A DNA stretch of 64,000 nt from Pseudopyrenochaeta lycopersici (taxonomy: Eukaryota; Ascomycota; Dothideomycetes; Pleosporales; Pseudopyrenochaetaceae): positions 210,735-274,734 of the forward strand of contig NHZP01000062.1 in the NCBI GenBank assembly GCA_003313425.1, written 5' to 3'. Positions 22,656 to 64,000 of the stretch are shown here, in pieces. Position numbers and translations under genes: made by a program. The notes beneath the pieces are model-generated. The model was given only the letters and a program-made list of their open reading frames with translations, did no database searches and was not told the DNA's origin. The stretch's first letter is position 1. The number at the start of each line of letters is the position of its first letter.

Positions 22656-25494
22656 CAGTGTATTAAACGGATGGCGCCGATTTGGATGATCCATCCAAAT
22701 ATGGCTTTGGATGGCTGAATCCAGATGCATAATGGATTTGGCGATCCATCCATATGCGGTAGTGTGGCTTCAGCCATCGCCTCCTATTTCCTTAGTTAGC
22801 CAGCCCCTGATAACGATGAAGCTTCGAACGCACTGTTTCTCCCACCTATATCCAAAGCTTCATGATGTCTTCTTTTAAACCCAACTTTCAACGTTCTTTT
22901 GACTTCAGTAAGATAAACTTTGAGCCTCAAGAATCCCGTTAGTATCCAGATATGAAGGCAGCACGTGCCGGATATCGCGCCAAATATCCATCATTAACAT
23001 CATCGCCGGAACCGTCGTCACCATCAGATATCGGCGGCGCCTCCGTAATTGTCTCAGATGTAGCTTCGACGTTATCGGAGGTGTCAACTCTTACTACCGT
23101 TCCAACTTTCGACACAGATCTGAGTAAGAAAGTACAACTTGGCGAGCCGAATCAGTTCGAGCAATCAAAGTTCGACTATCGTGAAGTCGAGTGGGATAGA
23201 CTGCCTGGCCACACTATACCGCTTCAGCGATTGACGGGCGGCCTGCGTTCGTGGATATGGCAATTTGGCGTGCCAACTGAAGAGACGGAGACCGGATCAC
23301 GCTGGTGGCTTTGCATGAAATGTCACAAGGTAGATCCGGTGTTTCGAGCCCAGCACAATTACCATTACATGGTCGACAAAGGAAGCAGTAATGCATCTGA
23401 TCATCTTCACCAAGTCCACAGGCTTGGGTGGAACAAGAAGACAAAGTCGGTCGAGCAATATGCAGGCAAAGGCTTACTACCACTAGTAAGTCTTGATGCA
23501 TATAGATCGGCGGAGCAGGCTACCCTGAATGAGTTAGCAATCGCCTTCGACGAGGTGCATTTTCGGAAGCTACTCGCACGTTGGATTGTGTACGACAATG
23601 TCTCCTTCCGACAGGTGGATAGTGAGGTCTTTCGCGACTTTATTACCTATCTCTCACCGCGCGCGGGTGTTGCCTTGCCTTGCGGTCGAACTGTGCGTAA
23701 CTGGATTATGCAGGGGTACCAAATTCACAAGGCTACTGTGAAAAACGCCTTGCACAATGCTATCAGCAAGATCCACATCGCCTTCGACTTATGGACCTCT
23801 GGTAATTGTCTCTCGCTGAACGGAGTCACGGCTCACTTTCTGGATGCCAACTTCAAGACGCAGTCGATTCTTCTATCGTCGCCGGAGCAGAGTGAGTCCC
23901 ATTACGGTGTCGACATCGCAGACCAAGTTATCACGGTCATCGAGGACTTTAACATTGCAAGCAAGCTAGGATTCTTTGTGTTAGATAATGCCTTAAACAA
24001 TGACACGGCGATGGAAGCAATCGGAGCAAGATTCGGCTTCAAACCCAAGGAGCGACGTCTTCGTTGTGCTGGCCATATTATCAACCTGATTGCGCGCCAC
24101 CTTTTATTCGGATTTGACAAGAAACTTTTCGAATTCGAAGATGCGATTCCAGGAAACATGCGGGATGAATTGAAGCGCTGGAGGAGGACGGGACCGGTCG
24201 GCAAAGCTCATAACTTGATTGTCTGGACTTATTCAAGTCCATCGCGAAGGAATCGCTGGCATAATAAACAACGAGAATATTTTGAGCAGATAGTCGACAA
24301 AGACGAGTGGCATACAATAAAGATTCGCGAACTTCATAGGAGTAATGATACTCGCTGGAACAGTGTCTACGACGAGATTAAGACGCTGCTTCCTCTGCGC
24401 GCGCCGTTCGACGACTTCATCCAAAGTGAGCGCGAGGCTGCTTTAAAGAAGAAGACCAAGAAACATGACAACGATCCCGATGCGGCTCGCAATGCAATCA
24501 TACAGGATACACTGTCCGAGGAAGACTGGGCTATTCTTGCTCAGTATGCGAAGCTCCTCGAGCCATGCTGGGAGGCTACCATGGACCTTCAAGGCCGCCC
24601 GGGCGATGGGAAGACTTGTGGACTCTTTAATGTCATGCCAGACCTCGAGTGTATCGTCGAGCACCTTACCGAAGTGTACAACAATTACAAGGACGCGCCG
24701 GCAGCGGCTACCGAAGGTCAATGGCATTTTAGGACCCAGATCAAACTTGCGCTCGACAAGGCAGAAGAATATTACGCCAAACTTGACGACTCTCCCGCAT
24801 ATCTTGCGGCAACAGTACTTCATCCGAGTTACACTTGGCGCTTCATTGAGCAGAGATGGGCTCGCAAGAAGTCTTGGGTTTTATCAGGCAAGAAGTCCGT
24901 CAAGTCGTTGTATGGGCTTCAATATAGGAAGCAAGTTGTATCGGAAGCTATCTCACCGCAGAAGCAACGTGAGCCGAACAAAGTCGTTGCTCATCGTCGG
25001 CAACATCTTGACAAGGTTCACTCGGATGCCCGCAAAGCTACTCCTCAGGATGAGTTCGAGCGGTTCTGCGATCAAGCAATTATTGATGTTAACGACTGCC
25101 CAATTCAATGGTGGCGTACGATCGGCTTAAAGGAATATCCTCATCTTGCGCAGATGGCGTTTGACATGCTATCTATCCCAGCAATGAGCGATGAACCTGA
25201 ACGAGTCTTCAGCCATATGGGACTCATGGTAACGAAACGTCGTAATCATCTTGAGCAAGATATAATCCAAGCCGCGCAATGTCTCTACTCCTGGGATCGT
25301 GCCAGCATTATTGACATGATGGCGAGCGATCCAGCAATGTAACTAGTCGCAATCACGCTCTTCAGAGATCAAATATAGTTCGGTGGCTTCAGCCTCAAAG
25401 ACCAATTTGGCTTAGATCCAGCGATTATCCAAAAGCCATCCAAGCCACCTAATGGATTTGGATCGGCTGGCCGATCCATCCATTTAACACACTG
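22656..25494 (+). mobile_element. hAT-E transposon, complete
   Basis: A 2839 bp element with inverted ends (CAGTGTATTAAACGGATGG on the left; CCATCCATTTAACACACTG on the right). Subterminal repeats of ATCCATCC/GGATGGAT occur on both sides. The exact 8 bp duplication GTTGCAAC flanks it. It carries one intron-less 796-codon transposase. It interrupts the MATE-like gene. Confidence 0.97.
22952..25342 (+). CDS. hAT-E transposase (796 aa, intact, intron-less)
   Basis: DNA transposase that recognises the element ends. After a variable N-terminus there is FDYREVEWDRL, a BED-like finger region (WWLCMKCHKVD with H...H near residue 150), then IAFDLWTSGN near 278, LGFFVLDNALNND near 342 and RLRCAGHIINLIARHLLF near 370. 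SNDTRWNSVYDEI follows near 466, and the C-terminal dimerisation motif DMLSIPAMSDEPERVFSHMG lies near 737. No stops, frameshifts or RIP-like codons, so likely active. The first ATG at 22952 gives a normal length for the family. Confidence 0.94.
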   Translation: MKAARAGYRAKYPSLTSSPEPSSPSDIGGASVIVSDVASTLSEVSTLTTVPTFDTDLSKKVQLGEPNQFEQSKFDYREVEWDRLPGHTIPLQRLTGGLRSWIWQFGVPTEETETGSRWWLCMKCHKVDPVFRAQHNYHYMVDKGSSNASDHLHQVHRLGWNKKTKSVEQYAGKGLLPLVSLDAYRSAEQATLNELAIAFDEVHFRKLLARWIVYDNVSFRQVDSEVFRDFITYLSPRAGVALPCGRTVRNWIMQGYQIHKATVKNALHNAISKIHIAFDLWTSGNCLSLNGVTAHFLDANFKTQSILLSSPEQSESHYGVDIADQVITVIEDFNIASKLGFFVLDNALNNDTAMEAIGARFGFKPKERRLRCAGHIINLIARHLLFGFDKKLFEFEDAIPGNMRDELKRWRRTGPVGKAHNLIVWTYSSPSRRNRWHNKQREYFEQIVDKDEWHTIKIRELHRSNDTRWNSVYDEIKTLLPLRAPFDDFIQSEREAALKKKTKKHDNDPDAARNAIIQDTLSEEDWAILAQYAKLLEPCWEATMDLQGRPGDGKTCGLFNVMPDLECIVEHLTEVYNNYKDAPAAATEGQWHFRTQIKLALDKAEEYYAKLDDSPAYLAATVLHPSYTWRFIEQRWARKKSWVLSGKKSVKSLYGLQYRKQVVSEAISPQKQREPNKVVAHRRQHLDKVHSDARKATPQDEFERFCDQAIIDVNDCPIQWWRTIGLKEYPHLAQMAFDMLSIPAMSDEPERVFSHMGLMVTKRRNHLEQDIIQAAQCLYSWDRASIIDMMASDPAM

Positions 25495-50600: not shown

Positions 50601-50735
50601 CTTGAATCTGCTTACTAATCGCCGAAAAGGGAAATAATGCTATTGGATCCATATTGGAGAACCAGGAGCCTATAGGCCTTACCTTCTGGACTGGATTGGA
50701 TCGAACCTCGGATCCAGCTCCAATCCTTACTCAGG
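47690..50735 (+). mobile_element. hAT-D transposon, probable extent
   Basis: An inverted match TAGGCTCCTGG (47799-47809) / CCAGGAGCCTA (50662-50672) lies about 140 bp outside the coding region on the left and about 90 bp on the right. Further out both sides carry repeats of GGATTGGA(TCGA). Exact termini and the 8 bp duplication could not be fixed, so the limits given are approximate. Confidence 0.65.
47941..50570 (+). CDS. hAT-D transposase, two exons, intact (up to 853 aa)
   Basis: Exon 1 is 47941-49302, then a 68 bp GT-AG intron with a TACTAAT branch site (49303-49370), then exon 2 49371-50570. The phase is exact. An inner ATG at 48043 (MTIKSYFSGC) is an equally good start. Motifs: BED-like finger WYCYLCEQKHH with H...H, ISFDLWTSPNYL, IGYFMADNASSND, RLRCFGHIANLCAQAFII, QSTRWNSYFLSI, and C-terminal DILAVPPMSDDCERLFSSAK. 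The extreme C-terminus is Gly/Glu-rich. There is no decay. The fragment at 15801-16238 is its closest relative here. Confidence 0.92.
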
Positions 50736-50972
50736 TATGCCGCTAGGGAATGCCCCCCTCTCCTAAACTAAACCCTTTCAGGAAGTCATTGCCTCTTCCA
50801 GCCAAACCCCCTAGCATCTCATGCGACCTCTCTACGCGCACACATGTTACGCGTCAACGCGCTTTTGCTTGCCAACTTATCACGAACATCCTTCTCCCCG
50901 ACTACTACAGCTTACTGATTAGCTCTATCTTACTGCGTACTCCTCGTACTTCTTACTGGCCGTAGAGCTGCT

Positions 50973-53900
50973 ATGACGGCTCAACTCGGATTAAGAGAGC
51001 TCCTCGAGCAGCTCAATCTCCACGTCAACGAGCCTGAGCCAGTCATCATCTGTCGCCTGTGCAAATTTGCTCTGCATGGCACCAGCAAGTCCATCGCTGA
51101 TCATGTGGTTGAAAAACACAACCATTCCAGGTATATAACGAAGCAGCTACGCGAACTTCTCAAACCGTACAACATCCTAGGCCCAAGAGAGCTCCGCCTG
51201 CGACCAGACCACTCTCCGCCCCATCCCTATCTTGCCAATCACCTTGGAAATGCGTGTAAGCATTGTGGCCATAAGACGACGAGCATCGACCTTATGGGTC
51301 GCCATTTATCTGCTAAGCACGGCGTGAAGCGCAAGCCCTTGACATGGCTCCACGATCATGTCAGCCGAGGCCTGATGCTCCAAAGCTGGGACCATAATGG
51401 AGCGTACGGTTATTGGATTGTGAAACAGGATCGTACATCTGCTACTCGCAGTTCTGTCGTCGACAGCAGCCTGCAACAGACCTCTGCACCGCGCCTGCAG
51501 CGCCTCGAACAGCTACATCTTAAAGAACTTGAACGCATGAATCGTCGTCGAACGAATGCAACCAATGACCTTGGCAGTTGCGACATGGCTTTGAACACGA
51601 ACTGGATGCGACGCACTGGATGGGCGGAAACCTTCGCTGGTGCAGAGCGCAGGCTCCTCGTGCAGCTCGCGCAGATCCCCGTCGTCACGGTGCGGAATCT
51701 GCACCTCGGACTCTACGGAGGCGTGGATCTGTACAGCTGCAAGGAAGATGAGTATAGACTAAGCCTTCTAGTCGCAGCGCTAGACCAAGTCTTTGATCGA
51801 TGTGAAGACACAGTCCGCTATACCGATGTTTCAATCCGGTGTCTGCTTCGTAGTTCATACCCCGATCGCACGTACAAGGCGCCTTTCGAGTTGGTTGGTC
51901 GCAAGGCAACTACCCAAAGATACAGAAGGATCTTCAAGATGGTTTTCTGTTTCTGTGTGCGCTTCTGGAGGCTGGACAAGTGCGCACGACAAAACCTTCT
52001 ACGCAGGTCTCTTACCAAAGAGCAAGATGAGTCGCTGCACCAACTGTGGTTTGACCAGGCATGGTCCCTTATGCCCGAGATGAAGACGAAGGAGGCAGAG
52101 CCGCGCGCATACCAATTAAAATCAGACCCTCCAAACTTGGAAACCTGGGAATCGATTTCGGAAGATGAGAGCGACGAGTCTGCCTCCGTCATCACAGACG
52201 ATGGTGAGGAAGAGTTCGAATCAGCAGAAAGCCTACTGATGACTGCATCAGAATTTGAGGCGCCTTCCAAAAGTCATAGTTTCTCGAAAAGGAATGGCAG
52301 AGAAGCTCTTTCCCGGGCTGAGCGCATGAAGCGCCGCCAGTCCACTAGTATGGCCCACGCTGCAAGTGCTCTGGATTCGAGAAGGGATCATGAAACTCCT
52401 CAACCCTTTGAAAAAAAGGAGGCGACATGGAGTAGCCTACTGGAAGATATGCTCTTCCACTTTGTATATTTTCTATCAACAGAGGAATATGAGGATGGCA
52501 CGCCGTCCTCCACCCTTCTGATATACTCCAGCGGTGTTCTTGGCTTGACTCAAGGTGGCTCTACATTCGAACGCGCGGGGAATTATACGTCAAAATTGTC
52601 TGCCATGATCTATTGCGTTCGAATGATTATCCTCGAAGCTACTCTTCCTCGGTTTGCTCATGTTGGCCTGGGTTGGAGCGTTAGACCACGCCATGGACAA
52701 GTGGAGCTCCTCAATCAGGCCCGTGGAAAAAATTTGTGCCTGGGATCGCCAACGCCAATGAATGAGCTTCTTAGCCTACGCGATTACGGGAGGGTAAGCA
52801 GTCGCTCAGAAGGGCCCTCATTCCGCGTGACTTGGAGCCAAGACGGCCAGGTCGTCTCTTGGGAAAAACATAGCCTTTCCATGGCGAAGTTCCGTCAGAT
52901 CAGCCACGACTCTATTCAGGACACTTTGGCAGTATGCAGTGAACTTATGTATGGTTGGAGTCCGCCAATCGATCTGGGTAGCATTCGTGACCATCTTGCT
53001 GATACTTCCGCCGGCTATTCCTTCGTGACTGACAGTGCGAATGGCCTCTCAGAATCGTACCTAGAGCTATCTCGCAGGGCTTCCTTGGCGACGGTTAATG
53101 GACTGCTGGCTGATGATGACTGGGACGACCAAGCGGTCCGCCGGTACCTAGAGCTATACAGTCAAATGACCGAGCTGATGATGTTGTCGCTGTATTTGCT
53201 GGGAGGACAGGCTCCAAGGGGAACAGAACTGTCAGCGCTCGAGCACTGCAACGGGTCTTCGACATCTCGTGGTGTGTGTGTATATTCACGTAAGATGGCG
53301 CTGATCTTCAGGCACGCCAAGTCCCGGCGCTCGACCAATCATGAGTTCTACGTGGTGAGATTCATGCCAGATGAAGTTGGTCGGCTTCTCTACTATTATC
53401 TTGTGTTCATTCGGCCATTTGTATGCATGCTCCATCGAGAGTTCCACGCAGGGGACATCGATAGCACGCTTCTCTTTTCATTGCCGACTGTTCCAAAAGA
53501 GCCATTGAAGACGTCGGTGCTTACGAAGGCACTCGAGCGTCAAACCACGAGCACTGTGGGTTTCCGATTGAGCGTTAGGACATATCGACAGCTAGTGATT
53601 GCAGTAACCGATAAACATATTCGACACATATCAGAACCTTTCAACAGGCATGACGACCGAAGCACAAAGGCAGATCCGAATGTAGCATATGCATGGCAGA
53701 GTGGGCACAGACCACTGCAAAGAGGCATGTCATATGGAATTGACGGTGCATTCCCGGATACGCTTCAACCTGCGCTGCTCAATATTTACGAATGGGCATC
53801 GAACGAGTGGCACAAGTTTCTGCAGCTAGAACCAGCAGCTCACAACGCCTGTATCGAGACGATCGAAGGTCAAAAGCGTAAGGTGCCGTCTTCTTCCAGC

Positions 53901-55364
53901 GATAGTTCTCCAAAACGGCGTTGTACCACTCAGCGAACGGGCATAGATTCATCCCCACCGAATGAGCAAGCCCTCCTCAAGCCCATGCCACACAAGATCG
54001 GCCAAGGCCCGTGGGCGAAGGAAGTCGAAGTTGCCTTTTACAAAAGCACACTAAAACAAGCATGGCTAGGTTGTATGCCTATCTTTAGTCGCCCAAGTCA
54101 CTTCGAGCGCGACAGAGTGATCGAGGAGAGGAAAAAGATTTTGGCCCACATCACGAGCGAAGAAGCAGAACTCAACAGACGCTTTGATTCCCGCCACCGG
54201 CTGCACGGTATAGATAAAGAGTTCGTACGCTGGAGAAACGTTGGCTGCCAGCTTTGTTACGCGGACAGTGGGAAGATGGAGCCCGATCACCTACTTGAGC
54301 ACTGCAACCGTCACCGTAGCTCCGCAAGAGCTCGACAAATTTTCGATTGGCTTCAAGCGCTCGAGCTTCCACGGCGCTCAAGGGGTGCTAGCTGGTGCAA
54401 TTTATGCTCCATGACTGAATTTGTGTGTGCAGATATCATTACAGGCGTCCGGCTAGGTGACGCCAAGCACGAGGCCGAAAGAAGTTATTGGAGAGAGCAG
54501 GCGGAGAAGTCGCTTGACGGGGATGGGAAATGCCAAATGAAGCTGGTAGTAAAGAGGACTATTGCTGCACTTTGTGCTTACGATGAACACATCCTTGGAG
54601 CCTTTTTGATGGAAAGACTTAGTGAGGAGAACGGAGTAGATATCATGGCGAAGAATCAGGTAGAGTTCTGGTTCCGGCAACGCGTCTCTCTGGGTGGCAG
54701 TGCAGTCTTGAGGCTTCTTTTCGTGTTTGAAATGCTTATAAGTGCTTTCAACTTCAGACGATCCCAGCCATCAGCGACAAAGAGCCCTAATTCAAGCGTA
54801 ATCTCCCCACTGCTATGTGGTTACGGCTGGGACAACGACGATGAAGTACAGGGCTGGCACAACACGTTGAAGTGGTGGATGGGAAAATGTGGATTCTGTG
54901 CTGGACGCGGGCTCGAAGATACCAAGATCAATCACAGTTTGAGCAACTGTAGGCGCGGGGGATCAACACAGCGGTCGATCCGCATGGGCGAAGCCATCTT
55001 TCTTGAAGGTTTCAAAGCGAAAGGTGGTTGTGCGAGGTGCGCTGTGCCTCGAGAAATTTGTGACAGGTGGGCAAAATCAAGCGACGGAGTCTGGAGAGAG
55101 CAACCTCTGGAACGTTGTCAATACGGGCGCTTGGTATACGATACAGTTGTCGGGCTATACCAATGTACCGATACAAGGTACGCCTTCGACTTGTTGACAA
55201 CGATAGAAGAGGAGGGTGAGGAGGAGTACCGTGACCTGGACGATGTTGACGTGACCATGTGGCTATGTAGGAAGTTGGTTGTTGCCAACGTTGAAGGTAC
55301 TGAGATGCTGCGACAGCTTTGGGTATGGACGCAAATGCTACAAAAGGCACGCTTAGAGTACTAA
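50973..55364 (+). CDS. Telomere-linked-helicase-like protein without helicase, with tyrosine-recombinase-like core (1463 aa)
   Basis: One uninterrupted frame. The N-terminus has two C2H2-like fingers (ICRLCKF with HVVEKH; CKHCGH with HLSAKH) resembling the DUF3505/OrsD type. The centre has GGQAPRGTELSALE (Arg749), TYRQLVIAVTDKHIR (Arg872), and QSGHRPLQRGMSYGID (His912 and Tyr921, nine residues apart). This is the order and spacing of catalytic residues in tyrosine recombinases, although the usual His of HxxR is replaced. The C-terminus has paired Cys/His clusters: CQLCYADSGK, CNLCSMTEFVC, CGFCAGRGLED, and CARCAVPREICDRW. These closely recall the tails of fungal telomere-linked RecQ helicases. 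No Walker A or DEAH box exists, and nothing suggests a deleted intron. It sits about 8.5 kb from the telomere. Function is not known; DNA binding is likely. Confidence 0.8.
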   Translation: MTAQLGLRELLEQLNLHVNEPEPVIICRLCKFALHGTSKSIADHVVEKHNHSRYITKQLRELLKPYNILGPRELRLRPDHSPPHPYLANHLGNACKHCGHKTTSIDLMGRHLSAKHGVKRKPLTWLHDHVSRGLMLQSWDHNGAYGYWIVKQDRTSATRSSVVDSSLQQTSAPRLQRLEQLHLKELERMNRRRTNATNDLGSCDMALNTNWMRRTGWAETFAGAERRLLVQLAQIPVVTVRNLHLGLYGGVDLYSCKEDEYRLSLLVAALDQVFDRCEDTVRYTDVSIRCLLRSSYPDRTYKAPFELVGRKATTQRYRRIFKMVFCFCVRFWRLDKCARQNLLRRSLTKEQDESLHQLWFDQAWSLMPEMKTKEAEPRAYQLKSDPPNLETWESISEDESDESASVITDDGEEEFESAESLLMTASEFEAPSKSHSFSKRNGREALSRAERMKRRQSTSMAHAASALDSRRDHETPQPFEKKEATWSSLLEDMLFHFVYFLSTEEYEDGTPSSTLLIYSSGVLGLTQGGSTFERAGNYTSKLSAMIYCVRMIILEATLPRFAHVGLGWSVRPRHGQVELLNQARGKNLCLGSPTPMNELLSLRDYGRVSSRSEGPSFRVTWSQDGQVVSWEKHSLSMAKFRQISHDSIQDTLAVCSELMYGWSPPIDLGSIRDHLADTSAGYSFVTDSANGLSESYLELSRRASLATVNGLLADDDWDDQAVRRYLELYSQMTELMMLSLYLLGGQAPRGTELSALEHCNGSSTSRGVCVYSRKMALIFRHAKSRRSTNHEFYVVRFMPDEVGRLLYYYLVFIRPFVCMLHREFHAGDIDSTLLFSLPTVPKEPLKTSVLTKALERQTTSTVGFRLSVRTYRQLVIAVTDKHIRHISEPFNRHDDRSTKADPNVAYAWQSGHRPLQRGMSYGIDGAFPDTLQPALLNIYEWASNEWHKFLQLEPAAHNACIETIEGQKRKVPSSSSDSSPKRRCTTQRTGIDSSPPNEQALLKPMPHKIGQGPWAKEVEVAFYKSTLKQAWLGCMPIFSRPSHFERDRVIEERKKILAHITSEEAELNRRFDSRHRLHGIDKEFVRWRNVGCQLCYADSGKMEPDHLLEHCNRHRSSARARQIFDWLQALELPRRSRGASWCNLCSMTEFVCADIITGVRLGDAKHEAERSYWREQAEKSLDGDGKCQMKLVVKRTIAALCAYDEHILGAFLMERLSEENGVDIMAKNQVEFWFRQRVSLGGSAVLRLLFVFEMLISAFNFRRSQPSATKSPNSSVISPLLCGYGWDNDDEVQGWHNTLKWWMGKCGFCAGRGLEDTKINHSLSNCRRGGSTQRSIRMGEAIFLEGFKAKGGCARCAVPREICDRWAKSSDGVWREQPLERCQYGRLVYDTVVGLYQCTDTRYAFDLLTTIEEEGEEEYRDLDDVDVTMWLCRKLVVANVEGTEMLRQLWVWTQMLQKARLEY

Positions 55365-55974
55365 GATTTTAGAGTACTTTTGGGGTCGTCATAACGACGC
55401 TAGATCTCTACCAAGTAGCTAGAGTACAATGATGCTGCAGCATATCAGCCCTAGTTCTTCTAATAAGTACCCTTAAAAATGTACTGTTACGAGAAGGAGC
55501 GAAGACATTGATCAAAATATACGGTTGCTTACATTACGCGATGTCATTGTAATTCTATTGCTACTCGTGTAGAATACGCATCCTTAACCTTCGGAGAGGT
55601 AGACAAAGGCTTAGAACTACTTGATAATGCTTTCTTGAAGACTTTGGCGTCTTGGTCTGCAAGCAGCGTGGTACTGCAGTCGTTAATCTCGACACGTATC
55701 CCCTGCAGCATCATACTATGTACCTACACTGTACCTTTAGGGTTATGTTAGGTTGCCCCCAGGGGCAAGAATTGAGTTGGCCTCCGGGGGCAAGACCCTA
55801 GGGGGGTTAACAAGCGTGGGAAGTAATGCCTGCCCCTAGGGGCAAGATGCCTGTGCGAACAACGTAGCTTCGCGAACTTCAAAACTTTATATAGCCTTCC
55901 CACCTACCACTCTATAGCGTGCCTATTCCATAAGAAGCTATTTTCCTAGGCTCTATTATACAAAAACCGCTCCT
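55365..55974. other. Intergenic stretch with GC-rich palindromes
   Basis: No gene. Bases 55755-55850 carry three short near-palindromes of the type GCCCCYAGGGGCAAG (see findings), upstream of the DUF3723 pseudogene. Confidence 0.5.
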
Positions 55975-56560
55975 ATGAAACGCAAAGGCGATAAAACGGC
56001 TGTTAAGGGAAGGAAGAAGCAACGAGTAGAGGTGAAAGATGTAGACTCCGTTCACGAGCAGGCTGAGCCATATCGACTGGCTACTGCTAGGTTTCCAATC
56101 GATGTGCTTACTTCAGAGTAGACGACTGGCACCAACCGGTCCATCAACGAACACCACAAGCGCCGCCTCTGCCAGACATTCAGAGAAGTAGGCGTCCTTC
56201 GCAGAAATGAAAGCCGCCGACTGCGGGTTGCTTGCACAAAAGCGCAAGTGCACCAGATGCTTGACTATCTCAGGCTGAGAGAAAGCGGAGTTCCGAGCGA
56301 TCGTAGTGGCCAGCGAACTGAGGGAGGAGATGATGCGGATTGGCCATCGTTCGAAGACTGGAGTAGCGTTGTTGGACAGAGGGCAGAACCTATGGCGTGC
56401 AACCATCGAGTAGAGGCCTTAAAGGAATATTTGCATGGTTCTCAGTCTGCGCATAGGGGGCGGTGGTGGATTGGTGACATCTACGACAAAGGTTCCATCC
56501 CTTAAGCCGCAGCAGCTAAGACGAGCTAACCCTAACGGCAGACGCAAAAAAAAAAAGCTC
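55975..56560 (+). pseudogene. DUF3723-family pseudogene
   Basis: An ATG at 55975 opens MKRKGDKTAVKGRKKQ. After PIDVLTSE there is an in-frame TAG (56119-56121), then NRSINEHHKRRLCQTFREVG, a VHQMLDYL segment, WPSFEDWSSVVGQRAEPM, HRVEALKEYL and WWIGDIYDK. This order, ending in a WW..D.YD segment, fits the DUF3723 family, a fungal accessory-chromosome and subtelomeric family of unknown role, by recalled resemblance. A frameshift near 56505 moves the readable LKPQQLRRANPNGRR piece to another frame, and nothing recognisable follows the A-tract at 56548. Dead and truncated. Confidence 0.65.
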
Positions 56561-56807
56561 ATAGGTAGCTGTTATTAAGAGCTGAGTTTTTGGGACGGGC
56601 TCTTAAGTGGCCGGGACCACGTCTAACCGAAAAACCTTGCCTAAATGCGAGATACTGTCGTTGTTCCGCTGCTGACTGTCAAGGTCTATAGGCAGGATAT
56701 TTAAGTAGAAGCGTCCGCGAACTAATGCAGTCTTTGGGTCTGGTCTTGAGCGAAGACCACACAAGGAAGATTATCCACAATATGCTTGTAAGACTACGCT
56801 GTGTAAT
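56561..56807. other. Short gap
   Basis: Nothing recognised. It should hold the 3' end signal of the leftward gene that ends at 56808. Confidence 0.4.
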
Positions 56808-57611
56808 TTAAACAGCTACTAACACGGTAAGAGCTGCAAAAAGCCAGACAAGAGGTGTGCTGTGTAGTAACTCGCCGTGGTTCTTATTCTCGTTCTTGTT
56901 CTCGCTGTCAAAGTTTACAGTAATATTCATAGCCGGCCTCGTTGACTTGGGCCTAGCCTCCCGAGTTTTGCGCGCTTTCTCAGACCCAGTCCTAGTAGGT
57001 CTCTTGCTTTTTGATCGTTCCAGGCTTCTTTTTACCTCCTGTTTGCTTGGTGCATTGTACACGTTCCCTGCGACGGTGTGTAGGCTAGCCCACGGCTCCA
57101 CAAACAACGCTGCCGGGTCCTCAGGTTGGCCATCTGTTGTGTTTAGAAGAAGCTGTGTAGAGCCATCCAGTAGAGGCAGGTTACTAGTTGGCAATTCCAT
57201 AGCATAAGGTGCCTGCGAGGAGGGCTTTTTTGGGTTGACAAGCTCGTACACCATCTTGCCCGCGAGAAACGTAAGCTGATGGGAGGACACCAGACCCGAC
57301 TGCATAGAGCAAAGAGACGGAGAGGATGCATTGCATCTGGCCTCATCAACCAGAAGGAGCGTGTAGGAGCCAGGAAGCCTCTGCTCTGTGCCTATCCTTA
57401 CAGCCACGGCAGGATCTATGGTGGCTGCGGGGCCTACGTGTTAGGGTCATGTTGCTGTGCACAGCGTAGATAGCAACTCACGCTCCACGGGGATGCCAAC
57501 ACCGCCACTAGCAACCGCCGTGTTGAATTCTACGGTAAGATTATCCATGGCTATGCCTCTTACAGACTGTAAAAGGCCAGCCATCAGAACTGTACGACAA
57601 GTGAAGTGCAT
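56808..57611 (-). CDS. Predicted secreted, GPI-anchored-type protein (251 aa)
   Basis: Exon 1 is 57611-57482, then a 48 bp GT-AG intron (57434-57481, CCTAAC branch site), then exon 2 57433-56808. The phase is exact. The ATG at 57611 gives a short signal-peptide-like start (MHFTCR then a hydrophobic VLMAGLL stretch). The middle has several N-glycosylation sequons (NLT, NAS, NTT, NIT) and a YTLLLVDEARCN segment faintly like PEBP-type folds. A basic Lys/Arg-rich linker comes before the end. The C-terminus is a hydrophobic run (STPLVWLFAALTVLVAV) directly at the stop, as in GPI-anchor signals or a tail anchor. I do not recognise the family. Confidence 0.6.
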
Positions 57612-58679
57612 TTTTGGTAGGCAGGCGTAAGAGGAGATAGATAGACAAATAGGAGGACAGGACGTTTAGGCTGGGTAGGTAAGAATAGACGAAAGAAAAG
57701 AGAAAGGGGCACAGCGAATCCAAAGATGAAGGAAATGCAGCAGAGACAGATGCCGAAAGAGCGTCGGTTTTTTGTAGCCGTTACCTCGCTGCCGCATATC
57801 GCATACGGACTTGGTGTAAAGCGCAGCACAAGGTAAAGACAGCATACCTAACACTAGCGTTTCTCTACGTCCCTGCTGCATCATGCAAAGACCTTAGTTG
57901 TCAACAAAACAGCATAGCGAGAATAGCTAAACGTCCAAGTAACTAGCATGTCAGTAAATCCCGACTGTTGGGCCTGTGTTGGGGAAGTGAGAACCAGCGG
58001 TTGAAACAGTTCGCCAAGGGAGGTGCAGTGGAGACGCACAGACTGTTAGAGGTCGGAGTAAATGCACGAGCTGCGCTAAGACACTTACAGCAGCTTCTAG
58101 AAGGCTTTGAAACACTACACAGACCAGACAGGTGTTTCTTAGCCGCTGATCCTGTTACCCAATACGGCTGCTTCGTTTATGCCCCCTTCTGTTCAGTGTG
58201 GTGATTAATTAGCGCGATTGTGTCAAGTTCGGCCGCGTTATGCCGAATAGGCCGTGCACTGGGGGTGCTAGGGAAGTACCGTTCATGCCAAGGCAATGCG
58301 GGTCTAGTCATTGTTGTCGTCTATGTCGCGACGTCCCTGCCAAGAACAAACCCTACGAGTTTCTTCAAGAGCCTCCCTTATTATACGATTGTTTTTGCTG
58401 ACAAACAGATAGGTTTGAAGGGCTATCGTTTATGCGTCTGGCTTGGTAGCTAACATGTCGAAACGATGCAAGCAGCTTGGCATGTTAGGGGCACGATTTT
58501 CGTCCTTATAGGAGGTATCTTGAAAGGATATAAAATAAGCATCTTTTACCCTAATTAGAACTCATATCATTAGCATCTCTCTATTTCATTTCTAGACACG
58601 CATCTTCTGTGAATGATTTCACTCAGCGCTCTTTTCCCTAACTTCAAGACTACCAATCCTTAACAAAGCCCCGTTCACT
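57612..58679. other. Intergenic stretch between the two predicted secreted-protein genes
   Basis: Plus-strand ORFs 57968-58204 (78 codons) and 58220-58453 have no domain, no splice partner and no composition bias. I would not call them genes. The region upstream of 58680 includes TATAAAATA near 58518-58527, a possible TATA box for the repeat-protein gene. Confidence 0.45.
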
Positions 58680-59905
58680 ATGCGAGCATCAACGGTCGCG
58701 GCCATTTTGGCGTTTACTGCAGGCATGACTGCTAATGCCGCACCTGTTGTCCTCTCAGAGGGTCTCTCTGATAGCCTCCCGTCTGGGCTTCTAACCACGG
58801 TTGGCCTTGATGTACCTGCAGGTGTTGATGATCTGTAGGTCCCACACAGCGAACAATATACTAGGTTACTAACAGCATCAGGAGCCAGACAATCCGAGAC
58901 CAGAGTTCTGAGGAGGCCCAGGCGGTTGCAAAGAGAGAGCCACAGCGAGGCCGGGGCCGCGGTGGACGTGGCCGGGCGGGTCGTGTTGGCGGTGTTGTTG
59001 AGGGTGTAACTGAGGGGATTGGCGGCGCAGCAGACGCAATTTTCATCGGGCAGACGATCCAGGACCAGACATCTCAAGAGGCGCAGCCAGTGGCGAAGAG
59101 AGAGCCACAGCGAGGCCGGGGCCGCGGTGGACGTGGCCGGGCGGGTCGTGTTGGCGGTGTTGTTGAGGGTGTAACTGAAGGTATCGGCGGGGTGGCAGAT
59201 GGAATCTTCATCGGACAGACGATCCAAGACCAGACGTCTGAGGAATCGCAGCCAGTAGCGAAGAGAGAGCCACAGCGAGGCCGAGGACGTGGTGGACGCG
59301 GGCGAGCTGGTCGTATTGGCGACGTCGTTGAGGGCGTAACTGAAGGTATCGGCGGTACAGCAGATGCTATTTTCATTGGGCAGACGATCCAAGACCAGAC
59401 CTCTCAGGAATCGCAGCCAGTTGCGAAGAGGGAGCCGCAGCGAGGCCGGGGACGTGGTGGACGCGGGCGAGGTAGTCGTGTTGGCGGTGTTGTGGAGGGC
59501 GTAAGTGAGGGGATTGGCGGCGCAGCAGACGCAATTTTCATCGGACAGACAATCCAAGACCAGACCTCTCAGGAGGCGCAGCCAGTGGCCAAGAGGGAGC
59601 CGCAGCGAGGCCGGGGACGTGGTGGACGCGGGCGAGGTAGTCGTGTTGGTGGGGTGGTTGAGGGTGTAAGTGAGGGTATTGGCGGGGTGGCAGATGGAAT
59701 CTTCATCGGACAGACGATACAAGACCAAAGCTCTGAGGAGGCGCAACCAGTGGCGAAGAGGGAGGCACAGCGAGGCCAGGAAGGTGGTAGACTTGGGCAG
59801 GCAGGGATTTGCCAGGTGGGGGTTGAGTCAGCGTGTAATGGCGACTCAGCTAGACCAGATTTGGAGTTTGGTGCAGATTTAGACTTCACTGGTGCAGATT
59901 TCTAA
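58680..59905 (+). CDS. Secreted Kex2-type repeat precursor, five 55-aa repeats (394 aa)
   Basis: Exon 1 is 58680-58834, then a 41 bp GT-AG intron with TACTAAC (58835-58875), then exon 2 58876-59905. The phase fits. Residues 1-21 form a clear signal peptide (MRASTVAAILAFTAGMTANA, then AP). After a pro-region, five nearly identical 55-residue units follow, each preceded and ended by Lys-Arg, the Kex2 cleavage signal. A Cys-containing acidic tail comes last. Each unit has an Arg/Gly-rich cationic head (EPQRGRGRGGRGR), a glycine-zipper-like middle (Gly every fourth residue through VVEGVTEGIGG), a hydrophobic IFIGQTI, and a Gln/Ser/Glu-rich end PVAKR. The Glu-Pro or Glu-Ala directly after Lys-Arg recalls Ste13-type dipeptide trimming. 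No known core-peptide family is recognised. Confidence 0.82.
58937..59761 (+). repeat. Coding tandem array, 5 x 165 bp
   Basis: Units at 58937-59101, 59102-59266, 59267-59431, 59432-59596 and 59597-59761. They are highly similar, with most variation at third positions and a few clustered replacements: Ala-Gly against Gly-Ser after the Arg-rich head, Thr against Ser before EGIGG, and alternating endings. The pattern suggests ongoing unequal exchange or conversion between units. Confidence 0.93.
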
Positions 59906-60929
59906 GATAGATCGTTAGTAGTTTCTACAAGCGAGTAAAGTACAAAATATAGATTGTTAATAAGCAAGTCGATTTATTTAGGGTTGTAACAAGCTACTAT
60001 AGATAAGGGAGTAATAAAAAGCAGTGTATAAAGCATAAAAAAGAATTGTAAAAAGAAGGGTAAGGGATTGTATTAGAGGTAAGTAGTAATAGTATTATTA
60101 TTTAGGGGGTTAGAGAGTAGGTTTAGAGTTAATTAAGAATAAGGTAGAGTTAAGTAAAAGGTATAGAAGTGTTAGATAAAATACTAAAATACGCTTTGCA
60201 GAATTAATAATTACGATAAATTAATTGTGTGTTGATTATAATTATATTCCTTATTAAGTTCTGTCTCCTACTTTCTTCTATATGTCCTCTACTTCTAAAG
60301 GTTCTGTTAATTAGTAATAGTTATTAGTCCTTCCTATACTGTACTTCTAAGGTTCTCCTTATATTTAATAAGAAGAGTAAGTTATTTTAGAGTTTAATAA
60401 GAGTAGGTTAAAAAGTGTTAAGATATAATAGAGAGTAGATTAGTAGCAGTAAGAGATTAATTAAAATTAAGATTAAGAGTATTCTTATTAGATATAAATG
60501 TGTAAGTTTAAGGAGGCTAGATAGTAGCACAAGTATTAAGTAGAACTAGTTAGTAGAAGGGCATGTAAAAGAGTTTTAATAGAGAAGACATAATAAAGCA
60601 ACTAGGGTAATAATAATAAATTTGGGGTTAGTTTAGGTAAATAGTTATTTTATATAACAAGGGGGATAAGTTATTAATTAGAATGATATAGTAATTTAAT
60701 TTAGTAATAGTAGAAGGATAAGCATAGAGGTATTTAGTATTATAAGAGAAGAGTTATGTATATTAGTAGAAGAAGAAGAAGTAATAGGTTATAAATTAGG
60801 TAATAGAGGTTAGGTTAGAGTTCTATAGAAGATTAGAAGATTAGAAGATAAAGAAGAGTTATAAGTAGATTTTAAAAGTGTAGGTAAAGTAAGTAATAGT
60901 AGTAAAGTATTTAGGTTAAAGGTTAGGGT

Positions 60930-61085
60930 AAGTTAAGTAGGGGTAAAAGAGGGGCAAACGACTAAAGTAGGGGTAAATAAGAAGGAAAGTAGTAAAGTAG
61001 GGGTAAATAAGGAGTAAACAACTAGAGTAGGGGCAAAAAAGGAGTTAGCGACTAGAGTAGTAGTAAACTTATAAGAAGGTGTAAC
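60930..61085. repeat. Degenerate tandem repeat, about 38 bp unit
   Basis: Units around CGACTAAAGTAGGGGTAAA followed by an AAGGAG run recur near 60938, 60960, 60995 and 61022, with C/T and G/A differences between copies. Confidence 0.6.
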
Positions 61086-61525
61086 CGTAACGAGGGGCGG
61101 TCTAAGCAGCAGGCTGAGCAGCAGGCCGAGCAGCAGACTAAGCAGCAGGCTAAGTAGCAGCAATACAAGCGGCGATAGGAGCAGCAGGAGCGCGAGGCAG
61201 CAGTGCACAGTCTGTGGCAGTGTCCGCAGCTAGGGCAGGAGGGTTTCTGAGAGATAGATGAGCTGCGGAGCAGAGTAAGGTATAAAAAGGAGGTTCAAAC
61301 GTGCTGGAAGTGTGGGATGATGGAGTATCTCTGCGGCAGAAAGCAGGGTAGCAAGCAGAGCAGCAAGCAGAGCAGCAAGCAGAGTAGTAGGCAGGCAGAT
61401 TGCGCATGGCCGAACGTAACGATAGCAGTACTATATAGGCTACGAGCAGCAGCAGAGGCAAAAGCAAAGCTAGAGGTAGGTAGAGGAATTCAAGATAGTA
61501 GGCTTTGGGAGGTAGGATATTGAGG
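61085..61525 (+). pseudogene. Eroded C-terminus of a telomere-linked-helicase-like gene
   Basis: A CpA-retaining island in the AT-rich zone. One frame reads a Gln-rich repeat (QQAEQQAEQQ), a VHSLWQCPQLGQEGF segment, then VQTCWKCGMMEYLCGRKQ, a Ser/Lys/Gln repeat, and ADCAWPNVTIAVLYRL. Stops at CAG/CGA-type codons interrupt it. The C-x2-C-x5-C finger followed by a Cys-aromatic-(V/L)-LY segment mirrors the tail of the 50973-55364 protein (CARCAVPREIC, then CQYGRLVYDTVVGLYQC). I infer a decayed relative, perhaps a full telomere-linked helicase. The preceding 1 kb is too mutated to tell. Confidence 0.45.
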
Positions 61526-62175
61526 GCAGGTAGATAGTAAGGAGGAGCTAGGTAGATGGATAGGAGAGGTATATCAAGATAGGCGGATTTTTAAGGATAT
61601 TACTAGTAAAGGAGTAGCTAGTATTATATATAGTATCTTAGAAGAGCAAAGAAGAAAATAGATATATTTTATATAGTATTTATAAAAGAATAGTTAACTA
61701 GTTTAAATAAGAAAAAAGAAGAAGAGAGTAAAGTAATTTAATATAAGATATTAGAAGGAGAGTAGAGAATAGCTAGCTACGTTAAATAAGAAAAAGAAGA
61801 AAGAGAGTAAAGAATAGCTAGCTACTTTAAATAATATATAAAATAGCTATAATTAGGTTAATTTTAAGAAAAGTTAAGTTTATATATAAGTCTTAGTAGA
61901 AAATACTATATAAATAACAATAGTAAGAAGCTATAGTATATAAAATTATTCTAGAAATATAGTAGTATAACTTTTATAGTAGTATAATAAGAAGTTATTA
62001 AAATATAAAAGTTAAAAGATAAAAAGAAAAGAAGAATAAAAATATTAGAGTTAATAATTAATAATCTTATAGTAAAGAATAGTTTTTAAAGTAAAGTAGA
62101 TAAAATAGTAGTAAAGAAGAAAGTAGTAGGTAAAGTAGCAGTAAGTAAAGCAGAAGTAAGTAAAGTAGAAGATAA

Positions 62176-62295
62176 TATAGTAGTATGTAAGATAGTAGTA
62201 TGTAAGATAGTAGTATGTAAGATAGTAGTATGTAAGATAGTAGTATGTAAGATAGTAGTATGTAAGATAGTAGAAAGTAAGATAGTAGAAAATAA
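62176..62295. repeat. 15 bp tandem array
   Basis: GATAGTAGTATGTAA is repeated at 62191, 62206, 62221, 62236 and 62251. Variants GATAGTAGAAAGTAA (62266) and GATAGTAGAAAATAA (62281) follow. Confidence 0.92.
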
Positions 62296-63254
62296 GATAG
62301 TAAGTAAAAGTATAGCTAAAGTAGTAGTAAGTAAAAGAGTAGATAATATAGTAGTAGGTAATATAGTAGATAAAGAAGTAGATAAGAAAGTAGTAAGTTA
62401 AGTAGTAGGTAAAGTAGTTAATAAGTAAGTAGATAAAATAAAAGTAGATAAAGTAGTAGTAAAAGAAGTAAAAGTAAATAATAGGTTAGTAGTATTAATA
62501 GGAAAAAAGAAGAGGAAGGTAAAAGAATTAAAATATAGTATAAAGAAGAGTAAATAATAAGTAAGTATAATTAAAAGAAAGAGGTTAAAAAGAGTAAAGT
62601 AATAAAAGATAAGTTAAAAAGCGTGAAGTAATAAAATAGAGGTTAAAGAAGAATAGATAGTAAGTAGTATTAATTAGAAAAAAAAAGATAGTATAATAAT
62701 ATAAAAGAGTATAGTACATAGAGATATTATAAGTAATAGAGTAGATAGTATAGTAGAAGTAATATTATAAAAGTTCCGAATTTAAAAAGAATAAAATAGT
62801 AGGAATAGTTTTAAAGTTAATAAGAATAATTAAAGTAAGTAGTAAGTAGTTAAAGACTAAGTAGTAAATAGTTTTATAAAAAAAACGAAAGTAAAGTAAT
62901 ATAATATAGTAGAGAAGAATAGTAAGTTATAAGTAGTAGAGTAGGTAGTATAGTAGAAGTAGGAAAATTAAGGTTTAGAATTTAAAGAAAATAGGATAGT
63001 AGAAATAGTTTTAAATTTATTAAGAAATATTATTTAAAGTTAGTATAAGTAGATAGTAGTAAGTAGAAAGTAGTTTTATGTTATTAAGGTTAAAAAAAGG
63101 AAAGTAATAGAATATAGTATAAGAGTAGAAAGATAGTAGGTATATAGTTTATAGTTTTAGTTAGTTAAAAAAGAGATTAGTAATTTAATATAGTATAGAA
63201 GGAGATAGATAGTAGAGTTTTAGTTTGTAGTTCTATAGAGTTAAGAGTTAAGAA

Positions 63255-63320
63255 AACAAAGTAATAGTATAGAAGTAATAGTATAGAAGTAATAGTATAG
63301 AAGTAATAGTATAGAAGTAG
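63255..63320. repeat. 14 bp tandem array
   Basis: About four copies of AGTAATAGTATAGA in a row. Confidence 0.85.
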
Positions 63321-63394
63321 ATAAATAGTAAGGTTCTCGTAAGTAGTATTATAGAGAAAAGAAAAAGAATAGTAAAGTAATTATATAAAGTATT

Positions 63395-63917
63395 AAGGGA
63401 GATAAATAGTAGGGTTTTACTAACTAGTTTTATAGGGGTAAGAAAGAAGAGAGTAAAGTAATATAATATAGTATAGAGAGAGAAAGATAGTTAGGTTTTA
63501 CTAACTAGTTTTATAAAGAGAGAAAGATAGTAGAGGTTTACTAACTAGTTTTATTTAGTTAAGAAAGAGGAGAGTAAAGTAGTATAATAGAGTATTAAGA
63601 GAGAAGGATAGTTAGGATTCGCTAACTAGTTTTATAGAGGTAAGAAAGAGAAGAGCGAAGCGATAGAATATAGTATAGAGGGCGAAAGATAGTAGGGATT
63701 TGCTAACCGGTTTTATAAGGATATAAAGAGGAGAGTAAAGCAATACAATATAGTATAGGGAGTAGAAGGAAGTAGGGATTCGCTAACCGGTTTTATAGGG
63801 TTATAAATGAGGAGAGTAAAGTAATATAATATAGTATAGAGGGAGAAAGATGGTAGGGATTCGCTAACCGCTTTGAATAGGAGAAAGAAAGAGGAGAGCG
63901 AAGCGATACGATATAGT
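63395..63917. repeat. Telomere-adjacent tandem repeat, units of about 80-90 bp
   Basis: Six or seven units with a landmark GGGATTCGCTAACCGGTTTT followed by a GAGGAGAGTAAAG(C/T)AATA segment. Landmarks lie near 63412, 63495, 63536, 63607, 63696, 63777 and 63857. The last units keep CpG and ACCGGT; the inner ones read ACTAGT. The last unit abuts the telomere. Confidence 0.85.
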
Positions 63918-63935
63918 AGGGGGTTAGGGTTAGGG

Positions 63936-63972
<37 letters not shown>

Positions 63973-64000
63973 GGTTAGGGTTAGGGTTAGGGTTTAGGGT
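63918..64000 (+). repeat. Telomere, TTAGGG repeats
   Basis: About twelve G-rich-strand repeats to the last base, with three irregular units (TTTAGGG twice and one with extra G). The G-rich strand running 5' to 3' to the right marks the right chromosome end. Confidence 0.98.

Follow-up and report, generated by a model that had tools for sequence, protein, structure and literature searches.

The window analyzed here, a stretch of 64,000 nucleotides of the Pseudopyrenochaeta lycopersici genome, runs into a telomere repeat at the contig end ((TTAGGG)n at 63921–64000, forward strand) and carries at 58680–59905, also on the forward strand, a KEP-type precursor gene encoding 392–394 amino acids. This assignment is based on the structure of the open reading frame (ORF), on homologues and on the coding signature. 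The gene starts with an ATG at 58680, and its stop codon ends at 59905. The precursor opens with a putative signal peptide (residues 1–20; 58680–58739), supported by hydropathy (up to 1.88 over 12 residues) and by similar leaders in other members of the family, with an A-N-A site before the presumed cut that was recognized by inspection. An intron of 41 bp with a TACTAAC branch-like site lies at 58835–58875; a second possible acceptor would give an intron of 47 bp (58835–58881), and the frame is preserved with either acceptor. Six Lys-Arg (KR) sites of the Kex2 type follow. The first is at 58931–58936, and the other five end the repeats 1 (58937–59101), 2 (59102–59266), 3 (59267–59431), 4 (59432–59596) and 5 (59597–59761), all of them exactly 55 amino acids long including the terminal KR. 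An acidic C-terminal peptide with a net charge of about −6 and a Cys pair (59762–59905) completes the precursor. Tandem Repeats Finder reports the gene as 5.5 copies of a 165-bp period (score 1177). The five KR-bounded 55-residue repeats were already described in the first-pass annotation, as was the occurrence of Glu-Pro or Glu-Ala after the cleavage sites, which we find to be EP at five sites and EA at the sixth. KEPs have been defined as proteins with at least three tandem repeats, each of at least 8 amino acids, between KR, KK, RK or RR sites, none being longer than 100 amino acids (PMC7329392). The window precursor falls within this definition with its five 55-residue repeats between KR sites, whereas the two repeats of one other copy in this genome (L032) would leave it outside.

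The stretch 58680–59905 is a real coding gene, as silent change between its repeats far exceeds amino-acid change. For the five window repeats in the coding frame, pS was 0.417 vs a pN of 0.050 (ratio 0.12), and 186 of the 244 pairwise differences fell at third codon positions (122 transitions and 64 transversions there). Comparing repeat with repeat, dS ranged from 0.37 to 0.88 and dN from 0.025 to 0.10, giving dN/dS values of 0.04–0.17, while the two shifted sense frames had pN/pS ratios of 3.6 and 5.0. The copies of the gene in this genome form sub-families A, B and C, each with an intact member, and we compared four classes in six pairs: A (the window gene), B (L017), C2 (L032) and C3 (L029, with one stop). 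The pooled repeat ratio between these classes, i.e., the uncorrected pN/pS over all repeat pairs, was 0.16–0.31, which is lower than the ratio of the pro-region in five of the six pairs and lower than that of the tail in four, with one tie and one reversal (C2–C3). A RIP-only control, in which class A was compared with a class of copies altered by RIP, gave a pooled repeat ratio of 0.35, so that a ratio below 1 is by itself weak proof of constraint; the within-gene dN/dS values of 0.04–0.17 lie below this control value. The released peptide units are conserved and not fast-evolving, and both the within-gene and the pooled ratios contradict the fast evolution proposed in the first-pass annotation. 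The signal region showed no amino-acid change over 47.8 sites between A and B and at most one in the other class pairs (one between A and C2). The short intron, also noted earlier, is 41 bp long in classes A and C and 43 bp long, with a different sequence, in class B, and the frame is restored in each; that the divergent class B intron still restores the frame supports the intron.

Homologues of the precursor occur in other fungi. A protein search gave a match in Pyrenochaeta sp. at 89% identity and one in Bimuria novae-zelandiae at 38%, and a search with alignment A1, in which 8000 candidates were scored, retrieved at least six proteins at E values up to 0.1, namely two from Pyrenochaeta (the second partial), that of B. 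novae-zelandiae, one unnamed ENA protein, and proteins of Bipolaris maydis (670 amino acids) and Pyrenophora tritici-repentis (393 amino acids). A search with the Bimuria protein alone recovered, among the 8000 candidates to which the list was limited, only the query itself. Bimuria, Pyrenochaeta and Bipolaris are placed in the Pleosporales; Pyrenophora is a genus of this order too. The leader follows the pattern M[RH][APT]ST[VIA]AAILAF wherever the N-terminus is present, with a similar start in Bimuria, Bipolaris, Pyrenophora and the protein P0004. KR was followed by [DE][AP] at 45 of 49 sites in nine proteins (three from this genome and six from the database); in the six database proteins alone the count was 31 of 35, the four exceptions all being from Bipolaris, and the chance of finding [DE][AP] after KR is 0.015–0.027 per site. 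As judged from the protein sequences, this pattern is the signature predicted for Kex2 plus Ste13, in line with the earlier proposal of a Kex2-type repeat precursor. Homologues lacking conserved KR sites but otherwise conserved had been set beforehand as a refuting outcome; the sites are kept, and exceptions were seen only in decayed copies, such as KK in L024 and MR in L026. The window, Pyrenochaeta, ENA and Bimuria members share a long RGRGRGGRGR-like head, which in most Bipolaris units is replaced by a short PQRGR one. No trustworthy match to the precursor was found among the Pfam and NCBIfam profiles. The Pfam NTS of PfEMP1 profile scored 26.7 bits on the second exon (cut-off 25) with no single stretch passing, and was rejected as a repeat artefact. 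The Sm D1 chains matched by alignment A1, and an NCBIfam TatA match far under its cut-off, were read as artefacts of low complexity or RG repeats.

The window peptide has a Gln-, Arg- and Gly-rich head, a Gly-rich middle and a Gln-rich tail. The cationic character attributed to it earlier applies to the Arg-rich head but not to the whole peptide, as the 53-mers of the window have net charges between −0.15 and −1.15 and pI values of 5.1–6.4. Their calculated masses are about 5.32–5.44 kDa, and loss of Glu-Pro would lower these by about 0.23 kDa. In relatives, the net charge per unit lies between about −6 and +1.8, some units being weakly positive. On average, the window units are hydrophilic, with gravy values of −0.52 to −0.67. 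The spacing of glycine at every fourth position, pointed out in the first-pass annotation, is visible in the middle part, but in single peptides it was no better than in shuffles for six of seven hand-picked cores. The helical moment of the window core did not differ significantly from shuffles (p 0.12), and uncorrected p values below 0.05 were obtained for three of the seven hand-picked cores (two from Bipolaris and one from Pyrenophora). The Cys pair of the acidic tail is also present in classes B and C and in the Pyrenochaeta and ENA members (P0001, P0003, P0004). The Pyrenophora protein contains other short units with Cys pairs (P0006). Judging from these features, cleavage may yield not only the repeat units but also a second type of peptide, acidic and with a Cys pair.

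The gene is located in a block of about 12.7 kb that is common to other copies (50728–63517), with an inner edge at ~50.7 kb in L016 and L019 and an outer reach of up to ~63.5 kb. We found the gene at about 55 places in the genome: a DNA search gave at least 43 matches, merged by hand to 40 places, and a protein search added about 15 places (hand count), mostly decayed or partial. The block also contains a large ORF on the forward strand (50919–55364; 1481 codons from stop to stop) with an OrsD domain near its N-terminus (PF12013, 4.4e-10), which may be linked to telomere-linked helicase genes. The OrsD segment at 51000–52200 recurs at 33 places (identity of at least 86% across 1 kb or more), and in 30 cases the contig carries a KEP match too. 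The interval that separates the OrsD ORF from the KEP gene contains a reverse-strand ORF of 210 codons (56808–57440) with a hydrophobic C-terminus and without a Pfam match.

The subtelomeric place suggested earlier for the window gene applies to most copies on long contigs. Thirty-two of the 40 places are on contigs of known length, and for 21 of them the contig measures 150 kb or more. Sixteen of these 21 lie within 35 kb of a contig end, all 16 facing it, and the other five are 48–129 kb from an end. On the smaller contigs of known length, five of 11 copies face the nearer end and six face inward, the latter being explicable by unplaced pieces. Telomere repeats were found, among the matches listed, at the ends of C5, C17, C18 and C62, with gene copies 4–21 kb away. 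The blocks of classes A and B (L017) are 91–99% alike from 56.8 to ~58.36 kb; similarity drops to 79% and then to 53% over the 300 bp immediately preceding the gene, and past ~60.1 kb the two can hardly be aligned. The gene thus sits at a change-point between homogenised upstream sequence and unrelated downstream sequence. On C90 (L018, L019), only ~0.8 kb separates the downstream side of a class B gene from the end of a class A block that lies nearer the contig start, and on C36 (L016) a truncated class B gene is joined without a gap to the inner edge of a further block, so blocks seem to be stacked on these two contigs. Between the gene and the telomere (60935–63918), the window consists of AT-rich tandem repeats with units of 12–202 bp, through much of which the RIP-class blocks align. 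Besides, a transposase-like region at 22656–25494 of the window, presumably of the hAT type judging from its ORF, has a 93% identical copy inserted in L021 between leader and repeats.

Copies at 40 of the about 55 places were read, of which 33 have both gene ends present. An intact ORF with a GT donor was present in 14 of these 33, including the window copy, and seven gene copies, the window's among them, are identical. Repeat number varies as suggested in the first-pass annotation, with two repeats in L032, three in L029, four in L017 and L031, five in the window gene, and six in L019, L020 and L033. Some frameshifted copies near contig ends may reflect sequencing errors. The RIP class comprises about 12 near-identical copies at 91% identity, with an identical gene sequence in six of the seven that were fetched. 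Each of the 108 differences between the RIP class and the window gene is a C>T or G>A change, with 68 located at CpA/TpG and 36 at CpG; the same type of change accounts for 542 of 548 differences in the block upstream of the gene and for 37 of 60 in its AT-rich distal part. Six pairs of RIP-class blocks are 99.77–99.92% identical over 8.5–9.6 kb, a similarity that points most likely to a single killed block copied later to many places. Live and dead versions of the gene have both spread, and since about 12 places carry a dead block, amplification itself is no sign of selection for the peptide.

Considering these findings, we propose, with a probability of about 0.82, that the window gene encodes a secreted, Kex2-processed KEP precursor of a Pleosporales family, carried on a subtelomeric block that is copied between contig ends. 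The genome has one match to the kexin-type P-domain, on C8, and three DPPIV-type (DPPIV_N) matches. The leader would direct the precursor into the secretory pathway, where Kex2 would cleave after every Lys-Arg, Kex1 would remove the Lys-Arg, and a Ste13-type dipeptidyl peptidase would take off the Glu-Pro or Glu-Ala, leaving five linear peptides of ~51 residues together with an acidic one that carries the Cys pair. We infer these processing steps, and the expression of the precursor, from its design and from the conserved cut sites and dipeptides. The block would be copied between contig ends, possibly by ectopic exchange, with changes in copy number and repeat number as the result, while RIP would kill some copies, one killed version having spread as well. 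As to its role, the likeliest option, which we suggest tentatively and at less than even odds, is that the peptide stays linear and acts outside the cell, on the membranes or surfaces of competitors or of hosts. A broader scenario is speculative and rather improbable: chromosome ends would act as a bank that can expand, storing the gene of a secreted peptide weapon, with live copies re-seeded between ends faster than RIP kills them, repeat and copy number tuning the dose, and the Gly-rich peptide being membrane-active in competition across the Pleosporales.

Other readings of the gene have to be weighed against a secreted KEP precursor. We hardly credit that the antisense ORF (402 codons, 58619–59827) is the gene and the sense repeats its shadow. 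The frame is long, and the pN/pS ratios of the three antisense frames (1.9, 0.17 and 6.7) include one low value, but the third positions of that frame mirror those of the sense gene, whose ratio is lower still. The longest antisense frame exceeds the sense frame in L029 (272 vs 183 codons, with one stop in sense), but it is shorter in L017 (sense 315, antisense 274), L031 (315 and 187) and L032 (181 and 136). As the sense protein was the query in the database searches, the homologues are no independent test of the strand; it is the sense reading, nevertheless, that carries a leader, an intron and the KR sites that other genera have retained. Equally remote, unless the genome has a second pheromone, is a mating alpha-pheromone precursor, the design of which, with KR followed by Glu-Pro or Glu-Ala, is that of alpha-factor precursors as described in PMC6339444. 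A clear separate precursor with seven PYG[VL]PIG units and KR-[DE]A and Ala/Pro-type spacers was found on C6 (C6:1178176, L049), and the 53-residue window units lack the PYGxPxG motif, a core that the same source describes as unique to Pleosporales (PMC6339444). Together with the homologues, this core suggests a place in the Pleosporales for the genome itself. At its variable place, the DNA pattern used for the pheromone accepted Leu, Met and Ile and excluded Val; it gave one match in the genome, on C6. A dikaritin-type RiPP precursor cyclised by UstYa is very improbable, although the precursor architecture is alike and the genome has 28 UstYa (DUF3328) matches: Tyr is absent from the window units, and all 28 matches are more than 40 kb away from the listed copies, with ~41 kb between the nearest one and a decayed fragment on C12. 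This bears out the view taken in the first-pass annotation, which saw no sign of a dikaritin.

It is possible, but on the whole unlikely, that the gene is now mere cargo of a subtelomeric repeat, i.e., that past selection shaped it and chromosome-end exchange spreads the copies without any use of the peptide. The strongest evidence for such a passenger state is the RIP-killed block itself with its near-identical copies, as its spread means that spreading needs no working gene. Besides, when the genome was searched with the Bipolaris protein in order to locate an ancestral copy at some other site, each of the 55 matches fell on a place that belongs to this family. On the other hand, the proportion of intact copies among those read at both ends argues against a passenger, as does the presence in each of classes A, B and C of an intact member that has retained its leader, frame and KR sites in spite of divergence at silent sites. 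The peptide could also be a structural coat like the repellents of Ustilago, self-assembling on aerial hyphae or spores, an option that we place after a membrane or surface role and regard as unlikely. The repellents are similar to the window units in peptide length and are hydrophobic, unlike the hydrophilic window units. The Gly- and Gln-rich composition is consistent with a coat peptide, as is the precursor design, which is that of Rep1, whose peptides are described as forming amyloid-like fibrils (PMC9769878).

Overall, we conclude that the presumably secreted precursor encoded in the window probably represents a new KEP family in an unusual genomic setting. The separate class put forward in the first-pass annotation is a separate family, but one inside the known KEP class. 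The family offers a motif recognisable in several genera together with clear constraint on the peptide, and its live and RIP-killed alleles near many contig ends could make KEP dosage, expression and use directly testable. It also shows a RIP-killed gene version copied to many places alongside live ones. No paper linking processed repeat proteins with subtelomeres was found in the open PMC library, and the conserved core motifs that the text of section 10 of PMC6339444 names do not include that of the window family. KEP-derived peptides are described as common in fungi, with mostly unknown function (PMC9769878), and the KEP class and its largely unknown functions have been treated by Le Marquer 2019 (PMC6339444) and Vogt 2022 (PMC9769878). 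Umemura 2020 distinguished 838 types comprising 7878 KEPs, in addition to 2560 stand-alone KEPs, with 22% near DUF3328 genes and up to 18.5 copies per strain in Peniophora; none of the eight leading multi-copy types in its table belongs to the Ascomycota (PMC7329392).

The KEPs of Le Marquer 2019 and Umemura 2020 likewise have a leader, at least three tandem repeats of 8–100 residues between dibasic sites, and Ste13-type dipeptides; the window family differs from them in its tens of copies near contig ends. The Ustilago Rep1 repellents, in which Kex2-cut repeats yield linear peptides, and the Candida Ece1/candidalysin precursor, which gives several KR-bounded peptides, resemble the window precursor in design, as far as they are described in PMC9769878. 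The alpha-pheromone precursor of Pleosporales is alike in its repeats and its KR plus [DE][AP] spacers, but its cores are short and of the PYGxPxG type. The dikaritins (ustiloxin, phomopsin, victorin) share a Kex2-cut repeat precursor, while the window units have neither Tyr nor a UstYa neighbour. A further comparison concerns AVR-Pita of Magnaporthe, which is not a peptide-repeat precursor. The AVR-Pita family is described as subtelomeric, and it is likewise a secreted-effector gene moved among chromosomes, but it is flanked by a retrotransposon (PMC3145791), whereas the window gene is carried in a block with an OrsD ORF.
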